A stretch of 64,000 nt of DNA from the NCBI RefSeq assembly GCF_013344685.1, contig NZ_CP050137.1, positions 1,864,001 through 1,928,000 of the forward strand. The letters are read 5' to 3'. Origin of the DNA: Sphingomonas sp. CL5.1 (GTDB lineage Bacteria > Pseudomonadota > Alphaproteobacteria > Sphingomonadales > Sphingomonadaceae). Below the pieces are notes generated by a model. That model did not search any database and was not told the DNA's origin. It worked only from the letters and a program-made list of their open reading frames with translations. Positions 30,388-57,162 of the stretch are shown piece by piece. Each line of letters opens with the position of its first letter. Position 1 is the first letter of the stretch. A program made the translations under genes and the position numbers.

Positions 30388-30430
30388 TTGATCTCATCCC
30401 ATATGGACAATATTGTCCCATTAAGAAAAA
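30388..30430 (+). promoter_or_regulatory. promoter with double copy of the island operator (site A)
   Basis: A -35-like TTGATC (30388-30393) is followed by a 17-bp spacer TCATCCCATATGGACAA (30394-30410) and a -10-like TATTGT (30411-30416). A second operator copy, TGTCCCATTAAGAAAAA (30414-30430), starts exactly 20 bp after the first. The same two-copy geometry with TATTGT between is found at 42383-42419. GGACAATATTGTCC (30405-30418) is a perfect 14-bp palindrome across the two. Confidence 0.65.
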
Positions 30431-30479
30431 TATTTCCGCGATTGGACTGGCCGCGCCGACGTGCCAGGGGGAGACCGAC

Positions 30480-32438
30480 ATGAAGCTGATGCTTGCACTT
30501 GCGCTGATGAGTCTCCCGCTGCCGGCGATGGCGCAGTCGTCCGCCCCCGCCGACACGCCGGGCAGGACGCCGGCCGGCGTCCAGTTCGTCCAGCCGAAGG
30601 ACTGGACGATGCAGGCGAACGGCGCGGTGACGTCGTTCGTTTCGCCCGAGGCGGACTTGCGGATCGCGGTGGTGGATGTCGGCGGCGCGGCGGATGCGCG
30701 GGAGGCGGCGGCGAAGGCCTGGTCGCTCTATCGGCCGGCGCGCGCGCCGAATGTGCGGCTCGTCACCGCCGCGCCGGCGACCGACGGCTGGAGCGAGCGC
30801 GCCAGCATCGCCTATGAAACCTCCCCGGCCGAGCGGGCGGTGCGCAGCGCGTTGGCGCTCAAGCAGGGGCAGGCGTGGACGGTGATGCTCGTCGACGGCG
30901 CGGAGGCGACGTACAACAAGCGCTCGGCGGCGACGTCGGTCATCCAGGGCAGCTTGCTCCCCGCCGGATTCGCCCGCGAGACGTTCGCCGGCAAGGTCGC
31001 GCATCGCCTGACCCCGGAGCGCATCCAGGCGCTGCGCGATTTCGTCGCGCAATCCGCGCGCACGCTGGAGGTGCCGGGCGTCGGCATCGCGCTGATCGAT
31101 CAGGGCAAGGTGGTGTGGGAGGGCGGCGTCGGCGTGCGCGCGCTCGGCTCGGCCGAGCCGGTCGATGCGCATACCAAGTTCATGATCGCCTCGAATACCA
31201 AGGGGATGGCGACGCTGCTGCTTTCCGTCCTCGCCGACGAGGGCAAGCTGAAATGGGACCAGCGCGTCATCGATCTCTATCCCTCGTTCCGGCTGGGCAA
31301 TGAGGAAACGACGCAATCGGTGCTGGTGCGGCATCTCGTCTGCGCCTGCACCGGCCTGCCGCGCAAGGATTACGCCTTCATCCTCGCCGATCAGGGCGCG
31401 CCGGCTTCCGACACTTTCCGCCAACTCGCGCAGACCCAGCCGACCAGCAAGTTCGGCGAGCTGTTCCAATACAACAATTTGATGGCATCCGCGGCGGGCT
31501 ATCTCGGCGGCGCGCTCAGCTATCCGAAGATGGAGATCGGCGCCGCGTTCGATCGGGCGATGCAGGAGAAGATATTCGATCCGATGGGGATGCGCGACAC
31601 GACGTTCGACTTCGGGAAAGGCATGAGCGGCGACTGGGCGAAGCCGCACGGATATGACGTGGACGGCCGGATGACGGTGATGTCCAATTCGTTCAACTAC
31701 ACCGTCTATCCCTACCGTCCGGCCGGCGGTGCCTTTTCCAGCGCGGCGGACATGGCGCGCTACGTGCAGCTCGAGCTGTCCAAAGGCCTGACGCCGGAGG
31801 GCAAAAGGGTGGTGAGCGAGCGGAACCTGCTGAAGCGACGCGAGCCGGGGGTGCAGGTCGCGCGGGATAGCTGGTACGGCATGGGGCTGTTCAACCGCGT
31901 GGCCTGGGGCGTGCCGGTCGTCACTCATGGCGGCACGCTGCAGGGCTTCCACAGCAACTGGTATGCGCTGCCCGACCAGGGCATCGGCGCGGTGATCCTG
32001 ACCAACGCGGATTCCGGCGCGTCAATGCTGGAGCCGTTCCTGCGCCGGCTGATGGAGGTGGTGTATGACGGCAAGCCCGAGGCCGTCGACGAGGTCAACG
32101 CCGCCGCGAGCCGCCTCAAGGCGCAGGCCAGGGCGCGCCGGGCGCGGCTGACGGTGCCGGGCGATCCGGCGGTGCTGGCCGCGCTTGCCGGAAGCTATCG
32201 CAGCCCCGAGGTCGGCTCGATCACGATCAGCGACCGCGACGGCGGCAAATGGATCAAGGCCGGATCGGTCGAGGGGCCGGTCGCCACGCGCAAGAATGCC
32301 GACGGCAGCGTCTCGATCGTCTCGATCGCGCCGGGGGCGATCGGCGTCGAGGCGCTTGTCGGCGCCAATGCCGACAAGGCGCGCACGCTGACCATTCGCG
32401 ACAGCCAGCACGAATACGTCTACACCGAGGTGCGGTGA
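30480..32438 (+). CDS. secreted beta-lactamase-fold serine hydrolase with extra N-terminal domain
   Basis: A 652-residue exported protein (signal peptide MKLMLALALMSLPLPAMAQ). Residues 30-170 form a separate domain I do not recognise. A class C beta-lactamase/D-aminopeptidase-like domain follows, with nucleophile S238-N-T-K241, YNN (FQYNNLMAS) as the YxN motif, and THGG as the KTG equivalent. An Ala-rich linker and a small beta domain end the protein. Such enzymes cleave D-peptides, esters or amides rather than drugs. GGGGGAGA precedes the ATG. It is a monocistronic unit under site A. Confidence 0.88.
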   Translation: MKLMLALALMSLPLPAMAQSSAPADTPGRTPAGVQFVQPKDWTMQANGAVTSFVSPEADLRIAVVDVGGAADAREAAAKAWSLYRPARAPNVRLVTAAPATDGWSERASIAYETSPAERAVRSALALKQGQAWTVMLVDGAEATYNKRSAATSVIQGSLLPAGFARETFAGKVAHRLTPERIQALRDFVAQSARTLEVPGVGIALIDQGKVVWEGGVGVRALGSAEPVDAHTKFMIASNTKGMATLLLSVLADEGKLKWDQRVIDLYPSFRLGNEETTQSVLVRHLVCACTGLPRKDYAFILADQGAPASDTFRQLAQTQPTSKFGELFQYNNLMASAAGYLGGALSYPKMEIGAAFDRAMQEKIFDPMGMRDTTFDFGKGMSGDWAKPHGYDVDGRMTVMSNSFNYTVYPYRPAGGAFSSAADMARYVQLELSKGLTPEGKRVVSERNLLKRREPGVQVARDSWYGMGLFNRVAWGVPVVTHGGTLQGFHSNWYALPDQGIGAVILTNADSGASMLEPFLRRLMEVVYDGKPEAVDEVNAAASRLKAQARARRARLTVPGDPAVLAALAGSYRSPEVGSITISDRDGGKWIKAGSVEGPVATRKNADGSVSIVSIAPGAIGVEALVGANADKARTLTIRDSQHEYVYTEVR

Positions 32439-32507
32439 GGGGGCCGGCGGATCGTCCTTGACGGACGGTCCGCCACGTCTCCCGGCATCATCGCGACGAA
32501 AACGAAA

Positions 32508-32543
32508 CGCCCGCCCGCGAGATATTGTCCTCGCGGGCGGGCG
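32508..32543. terminator. bidirectional hairpin terminator
   Basis: Perfect 14-bp GC-rich inverted repeat (32508-32521 with 32530-32543, 8-nt loop). It lies between the convergent serine hydrolase genes ending at 32438 and 32553. Confidence 0.8.
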
Positions 32544-32552
32544 CGTATCGGA

Positions 32553-34151
32553 TCAACGCCGGGCGGCGACCGGCGTGAACAGCAGGTCCTGATAATCCCA
32601 GCTGAAGTCCGCCAGCGGCGAGACCGCCTGCATCGTCACCCGATCGACCTTGCCCGTCGGGCCGAGCGCGAAAGTGACATAGGCCGGCTCGGCCGCCGGA
32701 TCGTCCCAGCGCGTGCGGAAGCTGTCATATTGCCAATGCTCCAGCGTGCCGGTCATGCGCGGCGTCTGCTTGAAGTCGATGCGCAGCTTGCCGCCTACCT
32801 CGCGGATCGCGATCGGGCCATACCATGGATCGACATAATCCCCGGCATAATGCGCCAGCGGCAATGACGGGCCGACCTGCGCGCGGGCGGCGTCGGCGCG
32901 GCCGAGCGCGGCGAGCGCCTTCGCCTGACGATCGCGCTTGTAGGCGCGCCATGCCGCCGGCCAGTCCTGCGTCGGCTTTTCGAGATAATGGTCGAGCAAC
33001 TCATATTGCAGGCCCTTGATCAGTTCGCCGTCCTCCGAGTTGATGAGGATCGTGAAGCCGACGTTCCTCTCCGGGATCAGCACCACCAGGGACTGGAAGC
33101 CGAACACCGCGCCGGAGTGGGAGACGATCTTGACGCCCTTGTAATCCTGCACGTTCCAGCCCAGCGCATAGGTGTTGAACATCGAGCCGGTGTCCTTGAG
33201 CGCGCCCTGCATCGGCGGGTTCGGCAACAGCACCACCGGCTTCCACATCTCCGCCGAGGCCGCCTCGCTGAACAGCCGCCCGTCGCCCTCCGGCAGCTTG
33301 CCGTGGGCGAGCTGGATCATCATCCAGCGGGCCATGTCGTTGGCGCTCACCGCCAGCCCGCCGGCCGGCGCGGCGTTGCGGCCGAGCTCGTCGCGCTCGT
33401 TGAGCACCGACTGGTCGCCGACGCCGCGAAACGCGCCATTGATCCGCGCGTGCGGCCACGCGCGGTTGACGGTGGCGAAGCGCGGCGCGCTGTCGCTGGT
33501 CGAGTTCTTCATCCCCGCCGCCTTCAGCACATGGCTGGCGACGAAATCCTCCCACGTCTCGCCGCTGACCTCCTCGATCAACTGGCCGGCGACCATGTAG
33601 AGCACATTGTCATAGGCATAGGCGCTGCGGAAACTGGTCGCCGGCTTGAGATAGCGCAGCCGCCGCACGCTCTCGCGCCGCGACAGGCTGGTGCGCGGCA
33701 CCATCAGCAGATCGCCCTCGCCAAGCCCCAGCCCGCTGCGGTGGACGAGCAGGTCGCGCACCGTCATCTCGCGCGTGACCCATGAGTCATACATCGCGAA
33801 CCATGGCACGTGGTCGATCACGCGATCGTCCCATTTCAGCTTGCCCTGATCGACCAGCACCGCGAGCGCCGCGACGGTGAATGCCTTGCCGGTCGAGCCG
33901 TTGGGGAAGATCGTGTCGGCGTCCACCCGGTCCGCCGCGCCGAGGCGCTTGATCCCGAAGCCGCGCGCGAAAGTGACCTTGCCGTTCTCGACGATCGACA
34001 TGGCGACGCCGGGCACGCCGATGTCGCGCCGGAGCTGCTCGACCTGATCGGCGAGGCCGCTGGGCGGATCGGCGGCGGCGATCGACGGCGCGGCGGCGAG
34101 CGCCAGCGCCAGCACGGCGCGGGAAGCGAGCGAACGACGGGAGAGGGGCAT
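32553..34151 (-). CDS. secreted beta-lactamase-fold serine hydrolase
   Basis: A 532-residue exported hydrolase (signal peptide to about residue 27, APSIAAA). The catalytic motifs are S86-T-G-K89, YDN (AYAYDNVLY) and HSG (VSHSGAVFG). A C-terminal DUF3471-like beta domain (about 430-530) is the layout of penicillin-binding-protein-4-star/esterase relatives that cleave D-amino-acid peptides or esters. The ATG at 34151 is set by AAGGAG 7 nt upstream. It is the third gene of the 37796-32553 operon of three related hydrolases, 32 bp after the second. Confidence 0.9.
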   Translation of the reverse strand: MPLSRRSLASRAVLALALAAAPSIAAADPPSGLADQVEQLRRDIGVPGVAMSIVENGKVTFARGFGIKRLGAADRVDADTIFPNGSTGKAFTVAALAVLVDQGKLKWDDRVIDHVPWFAMYDSWVTREMTVRDLLVHRSGLGLGEGDLLMVPRTSLSRRESVRRLRYLKPATSFRSAYAYDNVLYMVAGQLIEEVSGETWEDFVASHVLKAAGMKNSTSDSAPRFATVNRAWPHARINGAFRGVGDQSVLNERDELGRNAAPAGGLAVSANDMARWMMIQLAHGKLPEGDGRLFSEAASAEMWKPVVLLPNPPMQGALKDTGSMFNTYALGWNVQDYKGVKIVSHSGAVFGFQSLVVLIPERNVGFTILINSEDGELIKGLQYELLDHYLEKPTQDWPAAWRAYKRDRQAKALAALGRADAARAQVGPSLPLAHYAGDYVDPWYGPIAIREVGGKLRIDFKQTPRMTGTLEHWQYDSFRTRWDDPAAEPAYVTFALGPTGKVDRVTMQAVSPLADFSWDYQDLLFTPVAARR

Positions 34152-34183
34152 GGGGCAGCTCCTTGATGGGCGACGGCGCCGGA

Positions 34184-35653
34184 TCATTCGGGCTTGACGA
34201 AATGATAGGTTTCGTAGGGTTCCGAGGCGAGCGAGAGGCGCGGGTCCCGCGGGCCGCCGTAGAATTTCAGGCGATCATAGGGGCCGCCGGCGCGCGCGCC
34301 CGTGACCTGCTCATATTCGTCCGGCGCGATCTGCGCATAGGCGGTCTTCATGCCCTCCGCCGTGACCGTGATGACGTGCGGGGCCGGCATCTCCACCTTC
34401 AGGTCGTGCGCCGGATTGGCGGGGCGGGAATAGTCGCGACGGTTGGCGCGATAGGCGCCGAGCGGCGGCGGCGGGGCGTCCCCGGTGTAGCGCGGCGCGG
34501 GCGCCCGTGGAAACAGCCGCCCGATCAGCGCGTTGCGCAGCTCGGTCCGCGCGACATAGCTGCCCTGGCCGCCGGTGAAGGAGATGAAGAAGCCGATCCC
34601 CTGCGCCGGCGCGAGCACAAGGTCGGAGTGGAAATCGGCGGTGTTGCCGGCATGGCCGATCATGCGCGGCCCGGCCTCGCGCTCGACGAGGAAGCCGTGC
34701 GCCAGCCCCGGCATGCCGGCGACGTTGGTGAGCGAATCCCGCTCCAGCAGCGCGATGGATTCGGGGCGCAGGATGCGCTTGCCGGCGAGGGCGCCGTTGC
34801 CGAGGATCGCCAGCATGAAGCGCGCCATGTCCGGCGCGCTCGACGTCGCCGATCCGGCGGGCATGATCGCGCTGAGATATTCGAACGATCTGGGCACGAG
34901 CTGCCCGTTCACCAACCTGTGCCCGTCCGCCATACGCGGGGCGAGCGCGGCGGGCAGCGGCTCGCGGAAGGTGGTGGAGGTCATGCCGAGCGGCGCGAAG
35001 ATGTGGCGCTCGACATAATCGGGATAGGCCTCGCCGGAGACGCGCTCGACGATATAGCCGGCGAGGGCGGCGCCGTAGTTCGAATAGGCGATCTCCGTGC
35101 CCGGCGCCCAGAGGCGCGCGGGCACATGCGCCTTGATCCATTGCTGGTAAGGAGTGAGCTTGTCCGGGCTGTCGGTAATGAAGCCGCCGACGTCGCTCAT
35201 GCCGGGGCTGTGCGACATCAGGTCGCGCACGCGGATTGGCGCGCCCTGGAAATCGGGGATTCTGAAATCGAGGTAGCGGTTGACGTCGGCGTCGAGATCG
35301 ACGCGGCCCTGCTCGATCTGTTGCGTCAGCGCCACCCAGGTGAACAGCTTCGATACCGAGCCGGGGCGGAACAGGGTGCGCTGGCCGTCGACCGGCACCT
35401 GCTTCGCGACATTGGCGAAGCCGTAGCCGCGCGTGAACAGCACGCGGCCGTTCGCCACCACCGTCACCACCGCGCCGGCCACCTCGCGGCTCGCGATCTG
35501 CTCCGCCATCACGCCGTCGACGAAATCCGCCAGCCCCGCGAGACGATCATCGGCGCGCGCCTGTCGCGCGGTCGCCGGCGAGGTGGGGGCGAGGAGCGCC
35601 ACCGGCGCTGTGCAGACGAGCGCGACGCAGGTCAGGGCGCGGTTCAGGGGCAT
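34184..35653 (-). CDS. secreted beta-lactamase-fold serine hydrolase
   Basis: A 489-residue exported hydrolase. Motifs are S99-V-S-K102 (RPGSVSKLF), YSN (AYSNYGAA) and HAG (IGHAGNTADF). It shares long blocks with the next gene upstream (DVNRYLDFRIP, VERVSGE, YVERHIFAPLGM), so the pair arose by tandem duplication. It lacks the membrane tail of that paralogue. The start at 35653 follows GGAGAAG. It is the middle gene of the three-hydrolase operon. D-aminopeptidase, esterase or amidase action in the periplasm is the family expectation. Confidence 0.9.
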   Translation of the reverse strand: MPLNRALTCVALVCTAPVALLAPTSPATARQARADDRLAGLADFVDGVMAEQIASREVAGAVVTVVANGRVLFTRGYGFANVAKQVPVDGQRTLFRPGSVSKLFTWVALTQQIEQGRVDLDADVNRYLDFRIPDFQGAPIRVRDLMSHSPGMSDVGGFITDSPDKLTPYQQWIKAHVPARLWAPGTEIAYSNYGAALAGYIVERVSGEAYPDYVERHIFAPLGMTSTTFREPLPAALAPRMADGHRLVNGQLVPRSFEYLSAIMPAGSATSSAPDMARFMLAILGNGALAGKRILRPESIALLERDSLTNVAGMPGLAHGFLVEREAGPRMIGHAGNTADFHSDLVLAPAQGIGFFISFTGGQGSYVARTELRNALIGRLFPRAPAPRYTGDAPPPPLGAYRANRRDYSRPANPAHDLKVEMPAPHVITVTAEGMKTAYAQIAPDEYEQVTGARAGGPYDRLKFYGGPRDPRLSLASEPYETYHFVKPE

Positions 35654-35768
35654 CGGGCTTCTCCGCAAGAGGGGAGGGGAATGGTGCCGCCGCGCCCCGG
35701 AAAGGCGCGGCGGTGACAAGGTCGAGGGGAGGCGATGCGGCGGGGCCTCGCCGCCGCATCGCGCGCCG

Positions 35769-37796
35769 TCAGTAGCGTGTCGACATCGACATCAGGTTGA
35801 ACCGGAAGGCGAAGTAGAGGATCACCAGCGACGCCAGCAGCACCGCCACGCTCCACAGCCTGCCCGTCCACCTGCGCCCATCGCGCCACGCCAGCCACAG
35901 GTTCCAGCCGGCGATCCCGACCCCGCCGATGAAGACGATCGCGCCGATCACCTGCAACGCCATCAGGAGCGTGTCGAACCTGCCCGCGAGGTTCTTGAGG
36001 TTGCTGAACATCGCGGTGATGAGCGTCATCCACGCGATCAGCACGCCCGCCTCGAGGCCGGCGGCGATGCGCGTCGCGCGATACGCCTTCAGCGACTGGC
36101 CCGAGACGCCGAGCGGCGCGTTGTAGCGGCGGCGGATCGCCCAGCTCACCGGCCACCACAGGAAGGTCAGCAGCATGATCGCGAAGCTGGCGTAGAGCGC
36201 CGGCTTGAGCCACGAGGCGGAAACGCCGGCGGGCACGCGATCGAACACGATGAACGGCGACATCTCGTCCATGCTCCAGCGCACGACCTTGCCGTCCACC
36301 ACCTTGGCGGCGAGGCGGTCATGCCCGTCGCGTTCGCGCCATACGAACGGCGCGATCTCGACCCACTGGCGCGGCCTTCCGCCGGCTGCCTTCAGCGAGG
36401 GGACGACCAGCTCGCCCTTCGCATCGACCGTCACCTCGGTCTGGCCGAGCAGCCCGAGCGCGGCGGTGAAGCTCGTCACCGAGCGGCGGCTGTTCTCCCA
36501 CAGGCCGGTCATCATCTTCGCATGTTCCCGCGCGGTCCGCTCGTCGACCCGTCCGTCGGTGCCCTGGTTGGGGAAGTAGCGGTCGGCGAAATCCTCAAAC
36601 AGCGCGTTGCGCAGCGTCCCCACCGCGCCCTGCCGGCCGGGGCTGTTGAACGACACGTAGAGCCCGACGTGATCGTTGATGAACAGGTGCAGCGAGGTGT
36701 GGAACGCCGCCGTGTCGCCGAGGTGGCCGATCACCTCATGCCCGTTCACGTTGGTTTCGAAGAAGCCCAGCTCCATCCGGTTGAGCGGCGGGATCAGCGA
36801 ATAGGGATTGACCTTGTCGAGCGGGCTGTCGTGCATCAGCGCCGCGGTCCGTTCGCCCAGGATGCGGTTGCCCCCCAGCTCGCCGCCCTGGAGGTGCGCG
36901 AGCATGAACTTCGCCATGTCGATGCCGGTCGCGGAAAGCGCGCCGGCGGGCGCCGGGCCGATCAGCTCGAACTTGTCCGCCTCGCCCGGCTTGCGATAGC
37001 CGACCGCCATGTTCGGCACGAGCCGCGCCGGCAGCGGCTGGCGGAAGGTGGCGTCCTTCATGCCCAGCGGCGCGAAGATGTGGCGCTCGACATAATCGTC
37101 GAACGGCTCGCCCGAGACGCGCTCGACGATATAGCCCGCCAGCGCGGTCGCCCAGTTGGAATAGGCGGGCGTCGTGCCCGCGTCATAGACGCGCGCCGGC
37201 ACCGATCCCTTGAGGAAGTCGCCGAGCGGGCGCAGGTGGCGCGGATCGTAGAAGATCACGTCCTTCGCCGCTTCCTCGAAGCCGGCGGTGTGCGTCATGA
37301 TCTGTCGCAGCGTGATCGGCTGGCCGTTGCGCGGCGGGATCCTGAAATCGAGGTAGCGGTTGACGTCGGTGTCGAGGTCGAGCTTGCCCGCCTCCACCTG
37401 CTGCATCACCGCCGTCCAGGTCACGAGCTTGGAGACCGATCCGGGACGAAACAGCGTGCGGCCGGGATCGACCGGGATATGCTTCGCGACATCGGCATAG
37501 CCGTAGCCGCGCGCCGTCAGCACCTGGCCGTCCTTGACGATCGCCACCACCGCGCCGGGGATGTCGCCCGTGTGCAGCGCATAGGGCAGGTAGCCGTCGA
37601 GCCAGGTGTCGATATCCTCCTTGACCAGCGCGCGTCCCGCGCCGGGCAGGGGAGGGGCCGTGCGCGCCGGTGCTGGCGCCGCCTTCGCTGCCTCCGTCGG
37701 CGACAGGCTTGGCGCCAGCCTGTCGCTGCTCTGACCGATCGCCGCGCTCGCAACCAGCGCGACAGCTCCCATTGCCCAATTTCTGATCGACCGCAT
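35769..37796 (-). CDS. serine hydrolase (beta-lactamase fold) with C-terminal membrane domain
   Basis: A 675-residue protein with a signal peptide, a serine hydrolase domain (S120-V-S-K123, YSN in PAYSNWATA, HLG in GHLGDTAAF) and a beta domain. A C-terminal block (about residues 540-670) contains roughly four hydrophobic segments, for example WLKPALYASFAIMLLTFLWW and ALQVIGAIVFIGGVGIAGW. The catalytic part would be tethered on the periplasmic face. The ATG at 37796 follows GGAGAG. It leads the three-hydrolase operon under the promoter/operator at 37879-37908. Confidence 0.9.
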   Translation of the reverse strand: MRSIRNWAMGAVALVASAAIGQSSDRLAPSLSPTEAAKAAPAPARTAPPLPGAGRALVKEDIDTWLDGYLPYALHTGDIPGAVVAIVKDGQVLTARGYGYADVAKHIPVDPGRTLFRPGSVSKLVTWTAVMQQVEAGKLDLDTDVNRYLDFRIPPRNGQPITLRQIMTHTAGFEEAAKDVIFYDPRHLRPLGDFLKGSVPARVYDAGTTPAYSNWATALAGYIVERVSGEPFDDYVERHIFAPLGMKDATFRQPLPARLVPNMAVGYRKPGEADKFELIGPAPAGALSATGIDMAKFMLAHLQGGELGGNRILGERTAALMHDSPLDKVNPYSLIPPLNRMELGFFETNVNGHEVIGHLGDTAAFHTSLHLFINDHVGLYVSFNSPGRQGAVGTLRNALFEDFADRYFPNQGTDGRVDERTAREHAKMMTGLWENSRRSVTSFTAALGLLGQTEVTVDAKGELVVPSLKAAGGRPRQWVEIAPFVWRERDGHDRLAAKVVDGKVVRWSMDEMSPFIVFDRVPAGVSASWLKPALYASFAIMLLTFLWWPVSWAIRRRYNAPLGVSGQSLKAYRATRIAAGLEAGVLIAWMTLITAMFSNLKNLAGRFDTLLMALQVIGAIVFIGGVGIAGWNLWLAWRDGRRWTGRLWSVAVLLASLVILYFAFRFNLMSMSTRY

Positions 37797-37878
37797 TGGC
37801 CACTCTCCGTGTTTTCCCGCGAGGCGCATTTGCCAATCCCCGTCAGGCGAGATGTGCTCACTATTGCTCTGTATGGGA

Positions 37879-37908
37879 TTTATTATCCCAATTGGAGAAT
37901 TGGTCAAT
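37879..37908 (-). promoter_or_regulatory. promoter/operator (site B) for the hydrolase operon and XRE gene
   Basis: Read on the minus strand, TTGACC (37907-37902) and AATAAA or TAATAA (about 37884-37879) are separated by a 16-17-bp spacer holding TTCTCCAATTGGGATAA. The 26-bp segment 37883-37908 matches 57138-57163 at 24 positions. Both lie just upstream of an XRE-cupin gene, here on its opposite strand. It would drive the serine hydrolases and be repressed by an XRE-cupin protein. Confidence 0.7.
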
Positions 37909-38043
37909 TGCTCTCCGGCCCGGCCGGCGCTTTAATCGTTAATCCCCTGTTCCGGTCGGCGCGGGAGAGCGTTGCGCAGCCGCGCGCAACGATGCTACGC
38001 GAGGGGCGGATCAGCGAGATCGGGATCAGGCCGGAAGGACGGA

Positions 38044-38670
38044 ATGGCGGAACGGCACTCGACGCTCGGAGCGATCGTAAGGGGATTGAGGGACAGCAAC
38101 GGCTGGACCTTGCGCGAGATGAGCGAGCGCACGGGCATCCCGGTATCAACCCTGTCCAAGGTCGAGCACAATCGCCTGACGCTGACCTACGACAAGCTCC
38201 AGGAATTGAGCGCGCGGCTCAACATCCGCATGGCGGACCTGTTCGCGGACAGCGATCCGGCCCCGGCCAACTCCCCCGTCACCGCGCGGCGCAGCATCGG
38301 CACCCGCGAGAATGCCTTCCGCGTGCAGACCGCCAACTACGATTATTACTATCTCTGCGCCGAGCTGCGCCGGAAGCGGATGATCCCCAACATCACCACG
38401 ATCCGCGCCCGCTCGCTCGGCGAGTTCGGCGCGCTAGTGCGCCATGCCGGCGAGGAGTTCATCTACGTGGTCGAGGGGCGGATCACCGTTCATACCGAAT
38501 TCTACGATCCGGTGACGCTGGAGCAGGGGGAGTCGATCTACATCGATTCGAACATGGGCCATGCCTATGTCGCCGGCCCCGATTGCGACGAGGCGGTGAC
38601 GCTGGCGGTGATGTCGAGCGCCGAGGACGATTTGATGGACTCGCTGATAACGATGCACGGGGAGCGCTGA
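38044..38670 (+). CDS. XRE-family regulator with C-terminal cupin
   Basis: A 208-residue regulator. It has an N-terminal HTH_3 domain (about residues 8-65; SERTGIPVSTLSKVEHNRL) and a C-terminal cupin sensor (about 125-195; HAGEEFIYVVEGRITV and ESIYIDSNMGHAY). XRE-cupin proteins usually bind small nitrogenous metabolites and repress catabolic operons (PuuR, SutR type). It is a close paralogue of the protein at 57184-57888. The ATG at 38044 follows GGAAGGA. It is the probable reader of the repeated operator in this island. Confidence 0.9.
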   Translation: MAERHSTLGAIVRGLRDSNGWTLREMSERTGIPVSTLSKVEHNRLTLTYDKLQELSARLNIRMADLFADSDPAPANSPVTARRSIGTRENAFRVQTANYDYYYLCAELRRKRMIPNITTIRARSLGEFGALVRHAGEEFIYVVEGRITVHTEFYDPVTLEQGESIYIDSNMGHAYVAGPDCDEAVTLAVMSSAEDDLMDSLITMHGER

Positions 38671-39935: not shown

Positions 39936-40005
39936 GCCTCTCACTCCATCTTGATCTTGTTGATGCCCGGCAGTCTATGCGAATTACCCGTCCTGCGAAG
40001 ATAAA

Positions 40006-40022
40006 ATTTTCTATACAGGATA
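40006..40022 (-). promoter_or_regulatory. weak copy of the island operator (site H)
   Basis: On the minus strand TATCCTGTATAGAAAAT matches the 17-bp operator consensus at about 9 positions. It lies about 70 bp upstream of the M19 dipeptidase start, in the 108-bp gap after the S9 peptidase. Confidence 0.35.
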
Positions 40023-40043
40023 ATTATTCGGGAATTGCTCCTG

Positions 40044-42134: not shown

Positions 42135-42253
42135 GGCTTCGTCTCTCTCCCCTTGTTTCCATCGGCATCCGCCGGAAATCGCGCCACGCGGCGTGCGCGC
42201 CCTGACGGGCGAAAAGGTGCGACCCGAATCGGCTTCTACCGTTTCGATACGGA

Positions 42254-42282
42254 AGGCTATTGTCCCGATCAGGACTCGTCAA
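42254..42282 (-). promoter_or_regulatory. promoter with operator in the spacer (site D), S9 peptidase
   Basis: On the minus strand: -35 TTGACG (42282-42277), a 17-bp spacer AGTCCTGATCGGGACAA and -10 TAGCCT (42259-42254). The element is 26/30 identical to the promoter at 51249-51278 on the plus strand before the CocE-type hydrolase, including identical -35 and -10 hexamers. Confidence 0.75.
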
Positions 42283-42382
42283 TCGGCCTCGCTGCTCACC
42301 TGCCGTAATAAAATTGCCGTCCGCGAAGCGTTCACGCCCAACGGCGATCCGGCTACGACACATTTGCGTGACACGGGAATGA

Positions 42383-42419: not shown

Positions 42420-42516
42420 TGTGCATTATTGCCGCAACACCCGGTCAAAGAAGTCGGAGGTCCGCTCGGAAACCGTTCAAGGGGGACGGCCAACGGGCGG
42501 AATGAGGAGGTATCCC

Positions 42517-45828: not shown

Positions 45829-45874
45829 GATGGTGAAGTTTTTCCCGCTTTCGCTGTTTCTGGTCAAGATCGGT

Positions 45875-45920
45875 GAAAAATTCCCCTGGAAACGCGATAA
45901 ATTCGCTTTCGAAAAATTCC
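45875..45920. repeat. direct repeat GAAAAATTCC, possible Lrp operator
   Basis: GAAAAATTCC occurs at 45875-45884 and 45911-45920, 36 bp apart. A related inverted GGGAAAAACTTC lies opposite 45834-45845. The three AT-rich words fill the Lrp / dehydrogenase divergent promoter. The second copy ends just before the ribosome binding site GGTGGAGGTG. Confidence 0.5.
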
Positions 45921-45933
45921 GGTGGAGGTGATG

Positions 45934-49424: not shown

Positions 49425-49503
49425 GGGATGTGGAACTCCGTGTATCGCTTCGCCGGTAGGGGCGGGAGAGAGGGGGTGCGGCGCCTCGGCGTGGTCCATC
49501 GCG

Positions 49504-49763: not shown

Positions 49764-49780
49764 TTGCGCTTAATGGGATT
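49764..49780 (-). promoter_or_regulatory. island operator copy (site G) before dgcN
   Basis: On the minus strand AATCCCATTAAGCGCAA matches the downstream operator copy at 30414-30430 (TCCCATTAAG core) and is followed by AATATTC. A poorer copy (TTTGTCAATCGGGATCG, 49800-49784) lies 20 bp upstream with TTTAAT between, repeating the two-copy geometry of sites A and E. Confidence 0.5.
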
Positions 49781-49840
49781 AAACGATCCCGATTGACAAA
49801 GCGGTGTCGATCGGGCCTGCTCATGGTGGAGGATCGACCG

Positions 49841-51171: not shown

Positions 51172-51248
51172 CGCTCGTCACTCCGCGCGGGGTTTCCGAA
51201 CGACTAGCCGCCGCGCCGGGCGGCGACAATATGGTTTTCCTATCGCGC

Positions 51249-51277
51249 TTGACGTGTCCCAATCAGGACAATAGCCT
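51249..51277 (+). promoter_or_regulatory. promoter with operator in the spacer (site F), CocE-type hydrolase
   Basis: -35 TTGACG (51249-51254), a 17-bp spacer TGTCCCAATCAGGACAA (51255-51271) and -10 TAGCCT (51272-51277). The spacer contains the perfect dyad TGTCC-N6-GGACA. A protein bound here would block RNA polymerase. It is nearly identical to site D. Confidence 0.78.
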
Positions 51278-51335
51278 TTCGCTCGAAAGCAGGATGCGGC
51301 GGCGGGTCCGCTCGATCCACAGGGGAGCCTTTCGC

Positions 51336-53222
51336 ATGAAGCGCCTGATGCCGGGCTTGCTCGCCGCCGTCCTTTGCGCCCAGCCGGTGATGGCGCGGGA
51401 CGAGCTTGCCGTTTACTCGCCCGATGCGCTCGACCGCGCGCTGGCCGGGGCCGCCGATGCGCGGCTCGCCGTGCTGGTGCCGATGCGTGACGGCGTGGGG
51501 CTGTCGACCGACATCTACACGCCGAAAAGCGGCAGCGGCGGGAAGTTCCCGGTGATCCTGTGGAAAACGCCTTACAACGAACACAAGCTGCGCGGATCGA
51601 CGCTGCGCTACGCGATCGAGGCGACGCGGCGCGGCTATGTCTTCATCATGCAGAACGAGCGCGGCCGCTATTTCTCCGAAGGTAAATACGAAATCCTCGG
51701 CCGGCCGCAGACCGACGGATACGACACGCTGAGCTGGATCGCGGCGCAGCCGTGGTCGAACGGCAAGGTCGGGACGCTCGGCTGCTCCTCCTCGGCGGAA
51801 TGGCAGCTCGCGCTCGCCGCGATGCATCATCCCGCCCATGCGGCGATGGTGCCGATGTCGGCGGGGGCGGGGATCGGCAAGGTGGGCCGCTTCCAGGAGC
51901 AGGGGAACTGGTACACCGGCGGCGTGCCGCGCACCCTGTTCGCGCCGTGGATGTATGCGGTCGACAATCCGCTGCGCGCCGAGCTGCCCAAGGGGCTGGA
52001 CGAGAAGACGCGCGCATATATCGAGCAATATAACGACCTCAATGCGAAGAAGCCGGCGGTCGACTGGACCGTGCACATGCAGCGACTGCCCTATGATTCG
52101 ATGATGAGCAGCCTCGGCGAGCCGCCCGCGACCTTCGATTCCCTCGTCCATCGCGCGCCGGCCGATCCGGCATGGCGGACGGGCGGGCTGTATCACGACG
52201 ACATGGGCTGGGGCGTCCCGGCCCTGTGGTTCAACGCCTGGTATGACGTGTCGATCGGCCCGAACCTGGAGCTTTACAACCATGCCCGCAAGGTGGGCGC
52301 GGATGAGGCCGTGCGCGCCAACCAATATGCCGTCATCGCGCCGGGCACGCATTGCAGCTACGGGCGGCTCGGCCCGAACATGAAGGTCGGCGATCGCGAC
52401 ATGGGCGACGCGAGCTTCGATACCGATGGCGCCGTGTTCGGCTGGTTCGACCGCTGGCTGAAGGGGGACAGGAACGCCTTCGCCGCGAGCACGCCGCACA
52501 TCCGCTATTATCTGATGGGCGCGAACAGGTGGATGGCGTCGGAGCAATGGCCGCCGGCGGGCGTCACCATGCGGCGGCTGTATCTGCGCAGCGGCGGCCA
52601 CGCCAACGGGCTGGATGGCGACGGGCGGCTCGACGCAGCCGCGCCGCCCGCCGGCGAGGCGGCTGACCGCTATCGCTACGACCCGATGAACCCGGTGCCG
52701 ACGCGCGGCGGCGCGGATTGCTGCAACGGCGGGCTGGTGCAGCCCGGCGTGTTCGATCAGCGCCCGGTGGAGGCGCGCGGCGACGTGCTGGTCTATACCA
52801 GCGATCCGCTCGACAGGCCGGTTAACGTGGTCGGCTTCGTCGATGCGGTGCTGAAGGTGTCGTCAAGCGCGAAGGACACCGATTTCGCGGTCAAGCTGGT
52901 CGATGTCGCGCCGGACGGCACGGCATGGATCATCGCCGACACGATCCTGCGCGCGCGCTATCGCGACGGCTTCGACCAGCCGGCGCCGATGGAGCCGGGG
53001 CGCACCTACACCATCCGCCCGACGCCGATGACGACCGCGATCCAGTTCGGCGTGGGCCACCGCATCCGCGTCGAGGTGACCTCGTCCGACTTCCCCAAGT
53101 TCGAGCGCAACCTCAACACCGGCGGCCCGAACGAAAGCGAGAAGCTGGGCGTGGTCGCGGACAATGTCGTGCGTCACGCGGGCGAGGACGCATCGTTCAT
53201 CGACCTGCCGGTGATGCGCTGA
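51336..53222 (+). CDS. secreted CocE/NonD-family alpha/beta hydrolase (X-Pro dipeptidyl-peptidase-like)
   Basis: A 628-residue exported hydrolase (signal peptide to MARDE, about residue 20). The N-terminal alpha/beta-hydrolase domain has nucleophile Ser151 in LGCSSSAEW (the usual GxSYxG is altered), Asp in NAWYDVS and His in PGTHCSYG. A C-terminal jelly-roll (X-Pro dipeptidyl-peptidase C domain, about 400-625) follows. Relatives include X-Pro dipeptidyl aminopeptidases, alpha-amino-acid ester hydrolases and glutaryl acylases. GGGGAG sets the ATG at 51336. Site F is its promoter. Confidence 0.9.
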   Translation: MKRLMPGLLAAVLCAQPVMARDELAVYSPDALDRALAGAADARLAVLVPMRDGVGLSTDIYTPKSGSGGKFPVILWKTPYNEHKLRGSTLRYAIEATRRGYVFIMQNERGRYFSEGKYEILGRPQTDGYDTLSWIAAQPWSNGKVGTLGCSSSAEWQLALAAMHHPAHAAMVPMSAGAGIGKVGRFQEQGNWYTGGVPRTLFAPWMYAVDNPLRAELPKGLDEKTRAYIEQYNDLNAKKPAVDWTVHMQRLPYDSMMSSLGEPPATFDSLVHRAPADPAWRTGGLYHDDMGWGVPALWFNAWYDVSIGPNLELYNHARKVGADEAVRANQYAVIAPGTHCSYGRLGPNMKVGDRDMGDASFDTDGAVFGWFDRWLKGDRNAFAASTPHIRYYLMGANRWMASEQWPPAGVTMRRLYLRSGGHANGLDGDGRLDAAAPPAGEAADRYRYDPMNPVPTRGGADCCNGGLVQPGVFDQRPVEARGDVLVYTSDPLDRPVNVVGFVDAVLKVSSSAKDTDFAVKLVDVAPDGTAWIIADTILRARYRDGFDQPAPMEPGRTYTIRPTPMTTAIQFGVGHRIRVEVTSSDFPKFERNLNTGGPNESEKLGVVADNVVRHAGEDASFIDLPVMR

Positions 53223-53244: not shown

Positions 53245-54540
53245 CTAGCGGGCCTTGGGAGCCGTCTCCGCCGCGTCCACCGTCGCCTCGTCGGCGTTGG
53301 TCGGCGGCTCGGCGCGCATCGCGTCGGCGACCTTCTCCGCCGCCGCCATCACACGCAGGATGTTGCCGCCCGCGAGCTTGGCGACATCGGCGTCGCTCCA
53401 TCCCCGGCGCATCAGTTCGGCGAGCAATGCGGGATAGGTCGAGACGTCGCCCAGACCCTCCGGCAGCAATTCACCAACGCCGTCGAAGTCCGAGCCGATG
53501 CCGACATGATCGACGCCCGCCATCTTGGCGATATGCGCGACGTGATCGGCGACCTCCGCCAGCGTCACGCGCGGCGCCGGGTGCTGGCGATGCCATTCCT
53601 CCATCGCCGCTTTGGCCTTGTCGGGCTGGCCGATCAGAAGCCCGCCATAAGGCGGCGCGTTGAGCCGCGTGCGTTCCGCCGCCTCGTCCGCCGACCAGCG
53701 ACGATAGGCGTCGGAGATGTAGATCGGCGCGAAATTCACCATCACCACGCCGCCGTTCGCCTTCACGAGCCGGAGCACGTCGTCCGGGACGTTGCGCGGA
53801 TGGTCGTCGATCGCTCGCGCGCTGGAATGGGAGAAGATCACCGGCGCGCGCGAGACCTTGAGCGCGTCGCGCATCGTATCCTCGCTGACGTGGGCGAGAT
53901 CGACGAGCATGCCGAGCCGGTTCAATTCGCGCACCACCAGCCGGCCGAACGGCGTCAGGCCGCCGTGGCGCGGGTTGTCGGTCGCCGAATCCGCCCATTC
54001 GAGCGTCCGCACATGCGTCAGCGTCAGATAGCCGGCGCCGAGCGCGTGATAGGCGCGCAGCACCGACAGGCTGCGGTCGATCTGGCCGCCGCCCTCGACC
54101 CCGATCATCGACGCGATCCGCCCCTCGCGGTGGATGCGCATCACGTCCGCCGCCGTCCGCGCGAGCGCGAAGTCGCGGGGATAGCGGCCGACGATCTGGT
54201 GGATGAGATCGATCTGCTCGAGCGTCTCCTCCACCTGCCGTGGGCCGGGCAGGTCCGCAGATACATAGACCGACCAGAATTGCCCGCCGACCATGCCGCG
54301 CTTCAGCCGCTCGATATCGGTGTTGTACGGCTGCGGCCGGTTCGCGAGGCCGCGCTCCAGCGGCAGGGTCCAGCGCTTGTCGCCCTCGCGGCCGCGCAGC
54401 ACCTCGGGCCAGTCGTTATGGCCGTCGATCAGCGGAGTTTCTTTCAGCACGCGGGCGACGCGCGCGGCATAGTCCTGCGCCGCCGCCGGAACGGCGATCA
54501 GGCTGGCGGCGGCGAGGAACGCGATCATTTTGGCGGTCAA
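53245..54540 (-). CDS. M19 membrane dipeptidase, canonical metal site
   Basis: A 431-residue exported renal-dipeptidase-family enzyme. Zinc-site residues are complete: HND in LIDGHNDWPE, Glu in GVEGGG, His in LVDLAHVSED, SHSSARAIDDHPRN and HVGIGSDFDG. It hydrolyses dipeptides, including L,D-dipeptides. The start is TTG 54540 behind AAGGGGAT; an ATG four codons later has no ribosome binding site. It is the last gene of the dgcA / POT transporter / dipeptidase unit. A half-operator (CATTGGGACAAA, 54558-54569) lies in the 67-bp gap before it. Confidence 0.92.
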   Translation of the reverse strand: MTAKMIAFLAAASLIAVPAAAQDYAARVARVLKETPLIDGHNDWPEVLRGREGDKRWTLPLERGLANRPQPYNTDIERLKRGMVGGQFWSVYVSADLPGPRQVEETLEQIDLIHQIVGRYPRDFALARTAADVMRIHREGRIASMIGVEGGGQIDRSLSVLRAYHALGAGYLTLTHVRTLEWADSATDNPRHGGLTPFGRLVVRELNRLGMLVDLAHVSEDTMRDALKVSRAPVIFSHSSARAIDDHPRNVPDDVLRLVKANGGVVMVNFAPIYISDAYRRWSADEAAERTRLNAPPYGGLLIGQPDKAKAAMEEWHRQHPAPRVTLAEVADHVAHIAKMAGVDHVGIGSDFDGVGELLPEGLGDVSTYPALLAELMRRGWSDADVAKLAGGNILRVMAAAEKVADAMRAEPPTNADEATVDAAETAPKAR

Positions 54541-54607: not shown

Positions 54608-55897
54608 TCAACAAGCGGCTTCCCCGGACTCGTCCTGCGCGGCGACCAGCCGCGACAGCGGCCGGTCTAGCGCGCGCAGCAGCAAGGCAGCGGCGGCGGC
54701 GATCGCGACGAGCAGCAGGAAATAGGCGGGCGGCGTCATGCCGTGCCACAAGGTGCCGACCAGTCCCGCCGACAGGCTGCCGCTGAAGATCGTGACATAC
54801 CAGGCGGCGACCGTCGTCGCGCCCAGCCCGGCCGGCGCCAGCCGCGCGAACAGGCTGAGGCCGGTGGGCAGGATATACAGCTCGCCGAAGGTGAAGATCG
54901 CGAAGAAGGCGGCCAGCCACGGCCATGCCGCCCGGCCGTGGCTCGTCGCCGCGACGGTGGCGAGCAGGAGGTAGGCGAGCGCGACGATCAGCGCGCCGGT
55001 CGCCATCTTCGCGCCGGGCGCCTCGGGCGCGCCCGCCTCCGCCCGGCGGCGCCAGTGGCGCAGCAGCGGCGGGGTGAGGAGCATCACCAGTAGCGGGTTG
55101 AGCGACTGGAACCATGTCATCGGAACGGTCCAGCCGCCCGCCGCGCGATCAACGCCGCTGTCCGCCCACAGGGCGACGGTGTTGCCGACCTGCTCGTAGG
55201 CGCCACGGAAGATCGTCACCGCCACCGCGATCCCGAACAGCAGCAGCACCGTCCGCCGGTCCATCCGCGCGCGCCGCCCGGCCTTCCCGCGCGGCGCGGC
55301 CGCGCGCGTCTGGTCGGGCAGATAGCGGCCGCCGGCGATATAGATCGCAAGGCCCGCCAACATGCCCAGCCCGGCCGCGCCGAAGCCGTAATGCCAGCCC
55401 CATATCTCGCCCAGCGTGCCGCACACCAGCGGCGCGAGGAACCCGCCGATGTTGATGCCGACGTAATAGACGTTATAGGCCCAGCCGACGCGCGGATCGC
55501 CCGGCTCGTAGAGGTCGTCGATCTGGCTCGGCAGGCTGGGCAGGAACAGGCCGTTGCCGATCGCGATCGTCGCCAGCGCGAGATAGAGCAGCGGCTCGAA
55601 CGTCATCATCAGATGGCCCGCCGCCATGATGCTGCCGCCCAGGATGATCGCGCGCCGCTTGCCCAGGAAACGATCCGCCACCACGCCGCCGATGATCGGG
55701 GTGAAATAGGCGCAGGCGGTATAGGCGCCGTAGATCACCGAGGCATGCGCCTGCCCGATCATGAGCTGCTTGGTCATGTAATAGACCAGCAGCGCGCGCA
55801 TCCCGAAATAGGAGAACTGCTCCCACATGTTGGTGAGGAACAGGACGGTCAGCCCGCGCGGCTGGCCGAACCACGGGGTGGCGGCGGAGCGGCTCAT
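54608..55897 (-). CDS. POT/PTR2-family proton-coupled oligopeptide transporter
   Basis: A 429-residue MFS-fold inner-membrane protein. Its N-terminus, TNMWEQFSYFGMRALLVYYM, matches the POT ExxERFxYYGxRA motif with EQF in place of ERF. PTR2 features such as VYYVGINIGGFLAPLVCG follow. POT carriers import di- and tripeptides. Its ATG overlaps the upstream dgcA stop (ATGA at 55897-55894), and the M19 dipeptidase follows. Peptide uptake and cytoplasmic or periplasmic dipeptide cleavage are thus in one operon. Confidence 0.9.
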   Translation of the reverse strand: MSRSAATPWFGQPRGLTVLFLTNMWEQFSYFGMRALLVYYMTKQLMIGQAHASVIYGAYTACAYFTPIIGGVVADRFLGKRRAIILGGSIMAAGHLMMTFEPLLYLALATIAIGNGLFLPSLPSQIDDLYEPGDPRVGWAYNVYYVGINIGGFLAPLVCGTLGEIWGWHYGFGAAGLGMLAGLAIYIAGGRYLPDQTRAAAPRGKAGRRARMDRRTVLLLFGIAVAVTIFRGAYEQVGNTVALWADSGVDRAAGGWTVPMTWFQSLNPLLVMLLTPPLLRHWRRRAEAGAPEAPGAKMATGALIVALAYLLLATVAATSHGRAAWPWLAAFFAIFTFGELYILPTGLSLFARLAPAGLGATTVAAWYVTIFSGSLSAGLVGTLWHGMTPPAYFLLLVAIAAAAALLLRALDRPLSRLVAAQDESGEAAC

Positions 55898-56904
55898 GCG
55901 ACGGGCGTCGCCTGCGCTCCCCATATTTCCTCGCCGGCCCAGATATTGCCGTCGCGATATTCCACCCCCGGCACGCGGTCCCGCGTCAGGAAGGTCGGGC
56001 CGTCGAGGTCGACGAGGTCGCATAGCTGCCCGAGCACGAAACCCGGCGCCATCGCGAGACTGGTGCCGACCATGTTGCCGACCATCACGCCCATGCCGAG
56101 CCGGCGCGCCTCCCCGGCCATCATCAGCCCCTCGGTCAGGCCGCCGCACTTGTCGAGCTTGATATTGATCACGTCGAAGCGCCCGGCGGCGGTGGGAAGT
56201 TCGGCCAGCGACAGGATGCTCTCGTCGCCCGCGATCGGGATCGGCGACTTGAATCCGTCGAGGTCCTGCTCGCGCCCGCGCGCCAGCGGCTGCTCCAGCA
56301 GGCTCACCTCGGCGGCCTGCAACGCGGCGATCAGCGGATCGAGCTGCGCGGCGGCGAAGCCCTGGTTGCCGTCCACGCCCAGCCAGGCGTCGGGTCGCGC
56401 GGCGCGGATCGCCCGGACGCGCGCGATGTCGAGATCGAGATCGCCGGTCAGCTTGATCTTGATCGAGCGCGCATCGGCATAGTCGCGCGCGCGCTCGGCC
56501 ATCACGGCGGGATCGTCCGCGCCGATGGTGAAGGTGGTGCGCAGCGGGCGCGGCGCGTCGAGGCCGGCGAGTTGCCACACCGGCTGGCCGGCGCGCGCCG
56601 CCTCCAGCTCCCACATCGCGCAATCCACCGCGTTGCGTGCGCCGCCCGCCGGCAGGATCGCGCGCAGTTCCTGCCGCGTCGGCCCCGCCTCGATCGCGGC
56701 GCGCGCGCCTTCCAGCGCCGTCAGCATCGCGGGCGCATCGTCCCCGGTGTAATAGACGCCGGACGCCTCGCCGCGCCCGCGATGCCCGCCGTCGGACAGG
56801 GTGACGACGACCACGTCGGACGTCTCGAAGACATGACCGGAGATACGGAACGGCGCGGCGAGGCGCAGCGTTTCGGTGGTCCAGTCGATGGAGAGCCTGG
56901 TCAT
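55894..56904 (-). CDS. dgcA: enolase-superfamily dipeptide epimerase / N-acetyl-D-Glu racemase DgcA
   Basis: A 336-residue muconate-lactonizing-subgroup enzyme. It has the KxK base pair in SIKIKLTG (about residues 146-150), metal ligands Asp in VDGNQG, Glu in LLEQPL and Asp in AGDES, and the second base Lys in NIKLDKCGG. Relatives epimerise L-Ala-D/L-Glu or, as DgcA, interconvert N-acetyl-D- and L-glutamate. The presence of DgcN in the same island favours DgcA; an Ala-Glu epimerase working with the dipeptidase and POT carrier is the alternative. GAAGG precedes the ATG. Confidence 0.82.
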   Translation of the reverse strand: MTRLSIDWTTETLRLAAPFRISGHVFETSDVVVVTLSDGGHRGRGEASGVYYTGDDAPAMLTALEGARAAIEAGPTRQELRAILPAGGARNAVDCAMWELEAARAGQPVWQLAGLDAPRPLRTTFTIGADDPAVMAERARDYADARSIKIKLTGDLDLDIARVRAIRAARPDAWLGVDGNQGFAAAQLDPLIAALQAAEVSLLEQPLARGREQDLDGFKSPIPIAGDESILSLAELPTAAGRFDVINIKLDKCGGLTEGLMMAGEARRLGMGVMVGNMVGTSLAMAPGFVLGQLCDLVDLDGPTFLTRDRVPGVEYRDGNIWAGEEIWGAQATPVA

Positions 56905-57047
56905 TGATGGAATACCTTCATCGCGGAGAAAGCGGGATGGAGCGCGGGTTCAGGCCGACGCGTGGGCGGGGGGCGGGTTCTGCCGGAAGCCGGGCGAAAG
57001 CCTGTGAAAACAGCATGCCAAGGCGGCTGGCGGCGACTAGCCCTCAC
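56901..57047 (-). CDS. possible small upstream ORF coupled to dgcA
   Basis: GTG at 57047 lies 6 nt after AAGGAGGG and opens 48 codons that end in a 4-bp ATGA overlap with dgcA. The peptide is Arg/Pro-rich without a known motif. The ribosome binding site and overlap fit a translated leader; the composition fits chance. The dgcA gene also has its own site. Confidence 0.28.
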   Translation of the reverse strand: MRASRRQPPWHAVFTGFRPASGRTRPPPTRRPEPALHPAFSAMKVFHQ

Positions 57048-57133
57048 TTTTTCCCTCCTTCCATCCGGTGTGTCGGGGATTGCCCCGGTTCGGCCCTATT
57101 GGTAAAACGCGGACCGAATACGCTTCGATAGGA

Positions 57134-57162
57134 CGTTTTATCCCAATCGGAGAATTGGTCAA
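57134..57162 (-). promoter_or_regulatory. promoter/operator (site C) for dgcA operon and XRE gene
   Basis: On the minus strand TTGACC (57162-57157), spacer AATTCTCCGATTGGGAT and TAAAAC (about 57140-57135). It matches site B at 24 of 26 bases. It lies 22 bp before the ATG of the plus-strand XRE-cupin gene, where binding would also block that gene, and about 230 bp before dgcA. Confidence 0.68.

Follow-up and report, generated by a model that had tools for sequence, protein, structure and literature searches.

The window analysed here is a stretch of 64 kb from the 4.57-Mb genome of Sphingomonas sp. CL5.1 (G000:C1:1864001-1928000), and its part from 30 to 58 kb carries an island of peptidase, peptide importer and dgcN/dgcA-like genes together with the genes for two XRE-cupin regulators. 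Judged from the sequence, it is very likely that a putative XRE-cupin repressor, present here as two paralogues, controls this set of genes for peptide uptake and breakdown via predicted operators in the spacers of their promoters. The motif, its position in promoters, its link to the XRE-cupin gene and the families of the target genes are established by computation. A first-pass annotation of the same DNA had proposed that a repeated 17-bp operator ties the island into one regulon, which we find supported at the level of a predicted regulon and its likely regulator.

The predicted operator and its sites in the window

The core of the operator is the palindrome TGTCCTGATCAGGACA, which is often adjoined by a half-degenerate neighbour. 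Read on the strand of the gene under control, TTGACA is followed by the operator and then by the -10, after which a second operator is, by eye, often present. The literal sequence TGTCCCAATCAGGACAA has one perfect copy in the window (51255-51271) and, with up to three mismatches, three copies versus 0.07 expected; a loose search of the window for TGTCC-N6-GGACA gave 18 instances versus 20.6 expected, which is no better than chance. As plain consensus counting was thus either too stringent or no better than chance, matrices were used instead. The two operator matrices O1 and O2 were trained on 41 non-redundant XRE-cupin promoters of other genomes, none of them from the window. The copy beside the -35 has a degenerate right half (TCCTGATYRGARAA), and two separate spacings (5 and 6) were considered but not retained, since both forms fit one register, with the O2 copy carrying the degenerate right half.

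With cluster thresholds in the window of >15.5 bits for O1 or >15 bits for O2, which were chosen after the first matrix scan had been seen, the matrices give ten site clusters in the 64 kb (11855, 30411, 37881, 40006, 42260, 42402, 45489, 49782, 51254, and 57136), compared with a mean of 0.44 and a maximum of 3 in 100 dinucleotide-type shuffles. Nine of the ten lie within 30-58 kb, and eight of these nine are intergenic, a status that depends on gene starts set by hand, as the longest open reading frames (ORFs) at 30084, 42133 and 51231 and one ending at 37907 otherwise overrun the sites. The AT-rich cluster at 11855, outside the island, and the one at 45489, inside a gene, are probably due to chance. 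Just under the thresholds and outside the island are 5470 (O1 15.1) and 2136 (O2 15.0).

A promoter-operator model, R1, was built purely from sequence with 37 sites picked by hand, namely rows starting with TTGAC (one TTGAA); it is hence selected for a -35 and includes -35 and -10 positions. Its rows were taken from the list of a first promoter matrix, iterated over all loci, which itself was dropped after it had drifted to AT-rich DNA. In the own 4.57-Mb genome R1 gives three matches at an expectation value (E) of <=10, all of them in the window, with 150 of 793 first-look candidates scored.

Both regulator genes adjoin a tandem operator. The one between the S12 hydrolase operon and XRE-cupin 1 consists of a weak O1 copy at 37864-37881 and a strong O2 copy at 37881-37900 (O2 29.0, O1 12.9 and 16.0 bits; genome-wide R1 match with E 0.006). 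The one between the dgcA operon and XRE-cupin 2 extends over 57122-57155 (O2 at 57136-57155 24.3, O1 16.9 bits; genome-wide match with E 0.07), its O1 half being read by eye only. The operator before M19 dipeptidase a is located at 40006-40025 in the gap after the S9 gene (O2 29.6 bits; genome-wide match with E 0.05). The S9 peptidase promoter has its operator at 42260-42277 (O1 16.9 bits) within the 17-bp spacer TTGACG-N17-TAGCCT, and the S9 orthologue in another genome, G048, has the same layout (TTGACG-operator-TAGCGT). A TTGACG-N17-TAGCCT spacer also holds the palindromic operator of the CocE-type hydrolase (51254-51273), the top O1 score of the window with 21.5 bits. Two adjacent operators precede the S12 serine hydrolase, a weak one at 30392-30410 (O2 12.8, 0.70 expected), which by eye fills the 17-bp spacer TTGATC...TATTGT, and a strong one at 30411-30430 (O2 19.3/O1 18.1). 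Likewise, the TonB receptor is preceded by a weak site at 42383-42400 (O1 11.4, 5.75 expected) and a strong one at 42402-42419 (O1 19.0), and the operator upstream of dgcN is found at 49782-49800 (O2 15.9 bits, 0.10 expected).

The matrices from other genomes therefore bear out the sites proposed before at 30414, 37885, 40006, 42260, 42403, 51255 and 57140. The copies proposed at 30394 and 42383 are present as weak neighbours only (12.8 bits O2 and 11.4 bits O1, respectively), the operator upstream of dgcN is real in the sense of the matrices but was placed at 49764-49780 instead of 49782-49800, and the copy at 54558 was rejected with a best score of 5.1 bits. The earlier claim that the operator fills a 17-bp spacer in most cases applies by eye to 51255, 42260 and 30393 and nearly so (16-17 bp) to 37885 and 57140.

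Predicted operator, regulator and targets in other genomes

The best 80 of 193 relatives of XRE-cupin regulator 2 provided loci of 1.49 Mb in total, drawn nearly all from three proteobacterial classes and covering Sphingomonadales, Caulobacter, Luteimonas, Lysobacter, Stenotrophomonas, Massilia, Duganella, Steroidobacter, and others. They contain 140 clusters versus 4 in one Markov shuffle and 0 in the reversed sequence, so that the matrix scan of window and relatives, put forward in the first-pass annotation as a refuting test, did not refute the regulon. The clusters are found at the regulator promoter in 78 cases and elsewhere in 62, and 52 of the latter are intergenic, though coding sequence makes up 82% of the DNA. 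The 80 loci share a long conserved element before the regulator gene, TCCTGATTNGGACATAATGATCCTGATTGGAAAATTGTCAA, which exceeds 14 bits in 73 of the 80 XRE-cupin upstream regions, using a matrix trained on the same 80, versus 1 of 314 random pieces of the fetched loci. With training on the 46 alphaproteobacterial loci, 31 of 32 beta- and gammaproteobacterial loci score higher than the 99th percentile of 556 control pieces. With training and test groups exchanged, 34 of 46 do so, against controls that reach 53.8 bits, probably because real sites are among them. Among the strong O2 matches in the 80 loci, 116 of 136 have a TTGAC at most 10 bases away towards the promoter (97 of them at a single offset; background 16/4000), and in these relatives the predicted operator fills the spacer between -35 and -10.

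The regulator occurs in 34 of 151 genomes of a genus sample (called at E <=1e-60). R1, scored on up to 50 first-look candidates per genome with a match at E <=0.05, matches all 34 genomes with the regulator and 3 of the 117 without it, in support of the suggested link to the XRE-cupin gene. The 54 R1 matches in the 34 genomes are located at the regulator promoter (18), at 1-30 kb (34) or farther away (2), and 31 of the 34 genomes also have a match away from the regulator's own promoter. As for the three exceptions, G087 (L204 ~4440-5020) has an XRE-cupin gene broken over several frames, with operators and the S12, DgcA and DgcN genes remaining, which reflects either an error in sequencing or a natural loss of the repressor. 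In G078 and G136 the matches are on contigs of 3,971 and 3,895 bases with DgcA plus M19 or POT genes, and because these contigs are so short the regulator may lie off the contig. Separately, an R1 match at G047:C1:1183731 is located about 8-9 kb from a dgcN homologue and 165 kb from the nearest XRE-cupin gene, a possible case of control at a distance.

With respect to the targets, the proteins encoded divergently from the regulator were scanned for 29 of the 71 neighbours listed and for two from the window itself; these 31 comprise 26 S12 hydrolases, three enolase-superfamily proteins, one M19 and one POT protein. Behind other sites, 53 scanned genes encode TonB receptors (32), M19 dipeptidases (14), DUF1611/DgcN proteins (4), one S12 hydrolase and one hemerythrin. 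A BLAST classification against the window proteins, counted as genes with a site/with an upstream gap but without a site, gave 63/24 for S12, 62/11 for XRE-cupin, 15/7 for M19, 4/16 for DgcN, 2/15 for DgcA, 1/26 for POT, 1/7 for the transporter beside dgcN, 0/4 for the window-type TonB receptor, 0/1 each for S9 and CocE, and 42/363 for others. The others with a site must include most of the 32 site-bearing TonB receptors. From these tallies S12, regulator, M19 and TonB genes are therefore the general targets, and control of dgcN, dgcA and POT, if there is any, usually runs through an operon. Orthologues of S9 and CocE are scarce in the 80 loci (3 and 2), and no site is present at any of them; as targets these two are documented in this window only, except for S9 also in G081 and G048.

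In line with the conservation in orthologous promoters that had been predicted, sites recur at the S9 and dgcN orthologues of G081 and G048; before the dgcN orthologues they score 21.1 in G081, 33.1 in G048 and 15.7 in G045. In these three genomes, 18 stretches of 170 bases before called genes were scored; 8 contain a 12-bit match, and for 4 of the other 10 a site lies a little farther upstream or on the other side of a mis-called start. A Novosphingobium megaplasmid and pKN1 of Sphingobium yanoikuyae serve as annotated examples, where serine hydrolase, dipeptide epimerase, TonB receptor and DUF1611 genes and, variously, a peptide transporter and a dipeptidase stand beside the regulator, with sites at the regulator and before a TonB or POT gene.

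The regulators and the proposed mechanism

Regulators 1 (38044-38670, plus strand; ORF 37972-38670, likely start 38044; Pfam HTH_3 and Cupin_2 above cut-off) and 2 (57184-57888, plus strand; HTH_31, HTH_3 and Cupin_2 above cut-off) are 68% identical, and each directly adjoins a reported site. They have the N-terminal XRE/helix-turn-helix (HTH) part (HTH_31/HTH_3 above the Pfam cut-offs) and the C-terminal cupin (Cupin_2 with 41 bits, cut-off 27) of XRE-cupin factors and, at the level of sequence, palindromic sites in the core promoters of neighbouring genes. The HTH segment IPVSTLSKVEH is nearly invariant across 44 regulator sequences, and the predicted recognition helix is the same in both window paralogues. 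Invariant across the 44 sequences are also His133, Glu136, Glu137 and His172. The predicted structure of regulator 2 (mean predicted local distance difference test (pLDDT) 78, predicted template modelling score (pTM) 0.54) finds hydroxypropylphosphonate epoxidase (HppE) first in Foldseek (E 3.4e-14, template modelling score (TM) 0.40) and also the HTH_3 regulator 1y9q of V. cholerae. HppE, which is XRE-cupin-like, is thus the nearest solved fold and also a profile match; however, the identity is only 20%, and the gene context of the regulator is regulatory, with no evidence of catalysis. His133, Glu137 and His172 align with a His/Glu/His set of HppE, presumably its iron ligands. Both regulators (57184-57888 and 38044-38670) keep this His-x3-Glu ... 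His set. Metal-dependent sensing by the regulators seems possible, and the cupin of 1y9q is described as holding D-methionine (PMC7901475).

The best NCBIfam name for both regulators is PuuR of Escherichia coli (NF007408), which has the same HTH-cupin order and is described as sensing putrescine (PMC7901475), but its cut-off of 211 bits is missed by both (37.7 and 31.1 bits). A third XRE-cupin of the genome (G000:C1:2011656-2012189, 30% identical) lacks a site of >=15 bits in front of it, and the one 15-bit match in its locus (L218) is intragenic, at a distance of 8 kb. Similarly, no canonical site is present at the promoter of a 47%-identical homologue from Ensifer. Upstream of that gene on Ensifer canadensis pT173e (L238 ~8883-8920) a different inverted repeat is found, TTTTCCGATACG...CGTATCGGAAAA, possibly an operator of this family that has diverged.

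XRE-cupins are described as local inhibitors of neighbouring metabolic genes that act from palindromic sites in core promoters (Trouillon et al., 2021, PMC7901475; also PMC12724383); among them PsdR controls dipeptide use (PMC10965056) and DbuR D-amino-acid use (PMC12724383). The gene of PsdR of Pseudomonas aeruginosa adjoins its targets as here (PMC7901475), and PsdR is reported to repress the metallodipeptidase gene mdpA and the dipeptide uptake gene dppA3 from palindromic sites, with dipeptides inducing mdpA (PMC7901475, PMC10965056). Control of dipeptidases also seems to be shared, as the predicted sites here precede M19 genes in the window and those of 14 of the 53 scanned target proteins. 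We take MdpA to be an M19 enzyme, too. However, the PsdR palindrome TTAAG-N5-CTTAA (PMC10965056) differs from the operator described here. It is absent from the window, where scanning the plus strand suffices for a pattern identical to its reverse complement, and, with up to one mismatch, from all 80 XRE-cupin promoters. Whereas PsdR is described with two long-known direct targets, to which lasR was added later, about eight promoters would be involved here, and unlike that of PsdR the predicted target set includes S12 hydrolases, a TonB receptor and dgcN/dgcA-like genes. In Pseudomonas putida, DbuR is, similar to the putative repressor here, a divergently transcribed XRE-cupin that represses a D-amino-acid operon from a 20-bp palindrome overlapping the promoter (PMC12724383). 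It differs in its palindrome, AATTCTCATATATTAGAATT, and in having one D-branched-chain amino-acid operon as target, and its effector was, according to PMC12724383, not found. The predicted system is thus of the same kind as PsdR and DbuR, with a different operator and more promoters. No report of this operator or regulon was found in the open-access literature searched, as judged from the listings; PMC5343134 contains neither the word cupin nor XRE.

Beyond this, we infer binding and repression as well as the ligand and the role in physiology. An XRE-cupin dimer would sit on the TGTCCTGATCAGGACA-type palindrome between -35 and -10, often also on a second copy just downstream, and RNA polymerase would therefore be expected to be blocked at the regulators' own promoters and at those of the peptidase, dipeptidase, importer and dgcN/dgcA-like genes. 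A metabolite of the imported peptides, perhaps one that carries D-glutamate or another D-residue, would enter the cupin pocket, the DNA would be released and the gene set switched on. It is unlikely that the XRE-cupin activates these promoters instead. NceR, an XRE-cupin according to PMC12724383, is indeed described as mediating ompA activation (PMC10470515), but the sites here cover the -35/-10 spacer and what follows directly downstream, where binding should hinder the polymerase, and the seven XRE-cupins of P. aeruginosa with defined regulons are described as inhibitors (PMC7901475).

The operators could also belong to another regulator of the island, with the XRE-cupin genes as mere targets, and a Lrp/AsnC protein is in fact encoded inside the island near 45337-46911. 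This is quite improbable, since the element and the XRE-cupin gene occur together in three classes, the model matches track its presence genome by genome and the palindrome layout resembles that of XRE-cupin operators; conserved sites beside a regulator gene are, moreover, the usual sign of its own operator. That the motif is mostly a promoter signature (-35 TTGACA and AT-rich -10) derived from biased matrices is largely contradicted already and hardly credible: R1 does contain both promoter elements and the AT-rich 11855 match indicates that the matrices favour AT-rich promoter DNA in a GC-rich genome, but O1 contains no -35 and its five top-scoring places in the window are all island sites, 114 of 117 regulator-free genomes have no R1 match despite ordinary promoters, and DgcN paralogues (~48% identity) in 20 regulator-free genomes have a site within 2 kb in 0 of 20 cases.

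Several observations speak against a regulon repressed by the XRE-cupins from spacer operators. Clean spacer geometry is wanting at 42402, 49782 and 40006, so that 'in most' was a generous wording for the 17-bp spacer, and G048 has no site in the gap that corresponds to 40006. In the 80 loci, sites are missing before many genes of the target families that do have an upstream gap. Of 29 close DgcN orthologues, only 10 carry a site within 1.5 kb, which is partly due to operon structure. The R1 training set partly shares genomes with the genus sample (L042/G066, L047/G063, L106/G109). The pattern of the operator alone has 47 matches in the genome versus 12 for a reversed control; 18 of 21 such places examined outside the window are inside genes, and 4 of the 21 exceed 15.5 bits with O1, the top one (G000:C1:1572428, 19.3) inside a gene. 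With 0.44 chance clusters per 64 kb, single operators alone cannot define the regulon genome-wide. For DbuR, induction by D-amino acids seemed independent of the regulator (PMC12724383). As to the D-glutamate theme, the label D-Glu enzymes used in the first-pass annotation is based on families whose curated cut-offs are missed, both by DgcN (NF041892; 436.2 bits, cut-off 480) and by DgcA (NF042940; 358.9 bits, cut-off 400). Hence the former is DgcN-like only and the latter DgcA- or dipeptide-epimerase-like only, and since the scores fall under the curated cut-offs, the names dgcN and dgcA used here are to be taken as approximate.

Genes of the island and their possible role

The island starts with the ORF of an S12 (beta-lactamase-fold) serine hydrolase (30084-32438, plus strand; NCBIfam AmpH/class C below cut-off, domain from residue ~306), whose start was taken downstream of the operators. 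The S12 operon on the minus strand consists of gene 1 (35769-37907; Pfam Beta-lactamase E 8.8e-62; start taken at ~37830), gene 2 (34184-35719) and gene 3 (32553-34187), and orthologues of gene 1 are the usual divergent partner of the XRE-cupin gene. M19 membrane dipeptidases a (38790-39944; Pfam Peptidase_M19 E 1.6e-75) and b (53245-54540; E 1.8e-110) and the S9-family peptidase (40044-42134) are all encoded on the minus strand. The NCBIfam Dpp5/lasso isopeptidase matches of the S9 peptidase are below cut-off; the one to Atxe2-type lasso-peptide isopeptidases has 83.5 bits versus a cut-off of 400. On the plus strand, the ORFs of the TonB-dependent receptor (42133-45291; Pfam Plug, TonB_dep_Rec_b-barrel) and of the CocE/NonD family hydrolase (51231-53222; NCBIfam TIGR00976 with 341 bits, cut-off 66) also had their starts taken downstream of their operators. 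In the ORF 45337-46911 (minus strand) the Lrp/AsnC regulator is confined to the last ~160 residues, and the true gene is probably shorter.

The remaining genes are all on the minus strand. The DgcN-like DUF1611 protein (48381-49499, likely start ~49424; NCBIfam DgcN) is adjoined by an integral membrane transporter of APC/LeuT fold with 382 residues (47233-48381; model pLDDT 87), for which the top Foldseek matches are amino-acid transporters (TM 0.69 at rank 1). It has no Pfam or NCBIfam match above threshold, is 58-77% identical in 17 relatives with a conserved position beside dgcN, and on the basis of its model appears to be a member of an unnamed transporter family. The POT/PTR2 peptide transporter is encoded at 54608-55880 (Pfam PTR2 in frame 54608-56623) and the DgcA-like or dipeptide-epimerase-like enolase superfamily enzyme at 55894-56904 (NCBIfam DgcA).

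This gene set suggests peptides with D-glutamate or other D-residues as substrates, for which cell-wall fragments would be one source. A full cell-wall-peptide programme can be drawn up tentatively, and it is rather doubtful as a whole: the TonB receptor and the POT/APC importers would take up D-glutamate peptides, the S12, S9, CocE and M19 enzymes would cut them, and the dgcN/dgcA-like enzymes or an epimerase would make L-glutamate. The XRE-cupin would then sense a D-residue dipeptide or N-acyl-D-glutamate via a metal at His-Glu-His as in HppE, and the second regulator copy would allow a graded or two-signal response.

The analysis provides an operator sequence together with a likely regulator and its list of targets. 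The gene set concerned is found again and again in Sphingomonadales, Caulobacter, Luteimonas/Lysobacter, Massilia/Duganella and Steroidobacter-type bacteria, and many of its enzymes have an unclear substrate. If the XRE-cupin regulon is true, the co-regulation argues that the S12 and M19 enzymes, the TonB receptor, the transporter without Pfam match and the DUF1611/DgcN-like proteins act on one class of compounds, and the question of the substrate would be testable with one reporter. A nutrient-scavenging programme may therefore be readable from a shared operator arrangement across related bacteria.

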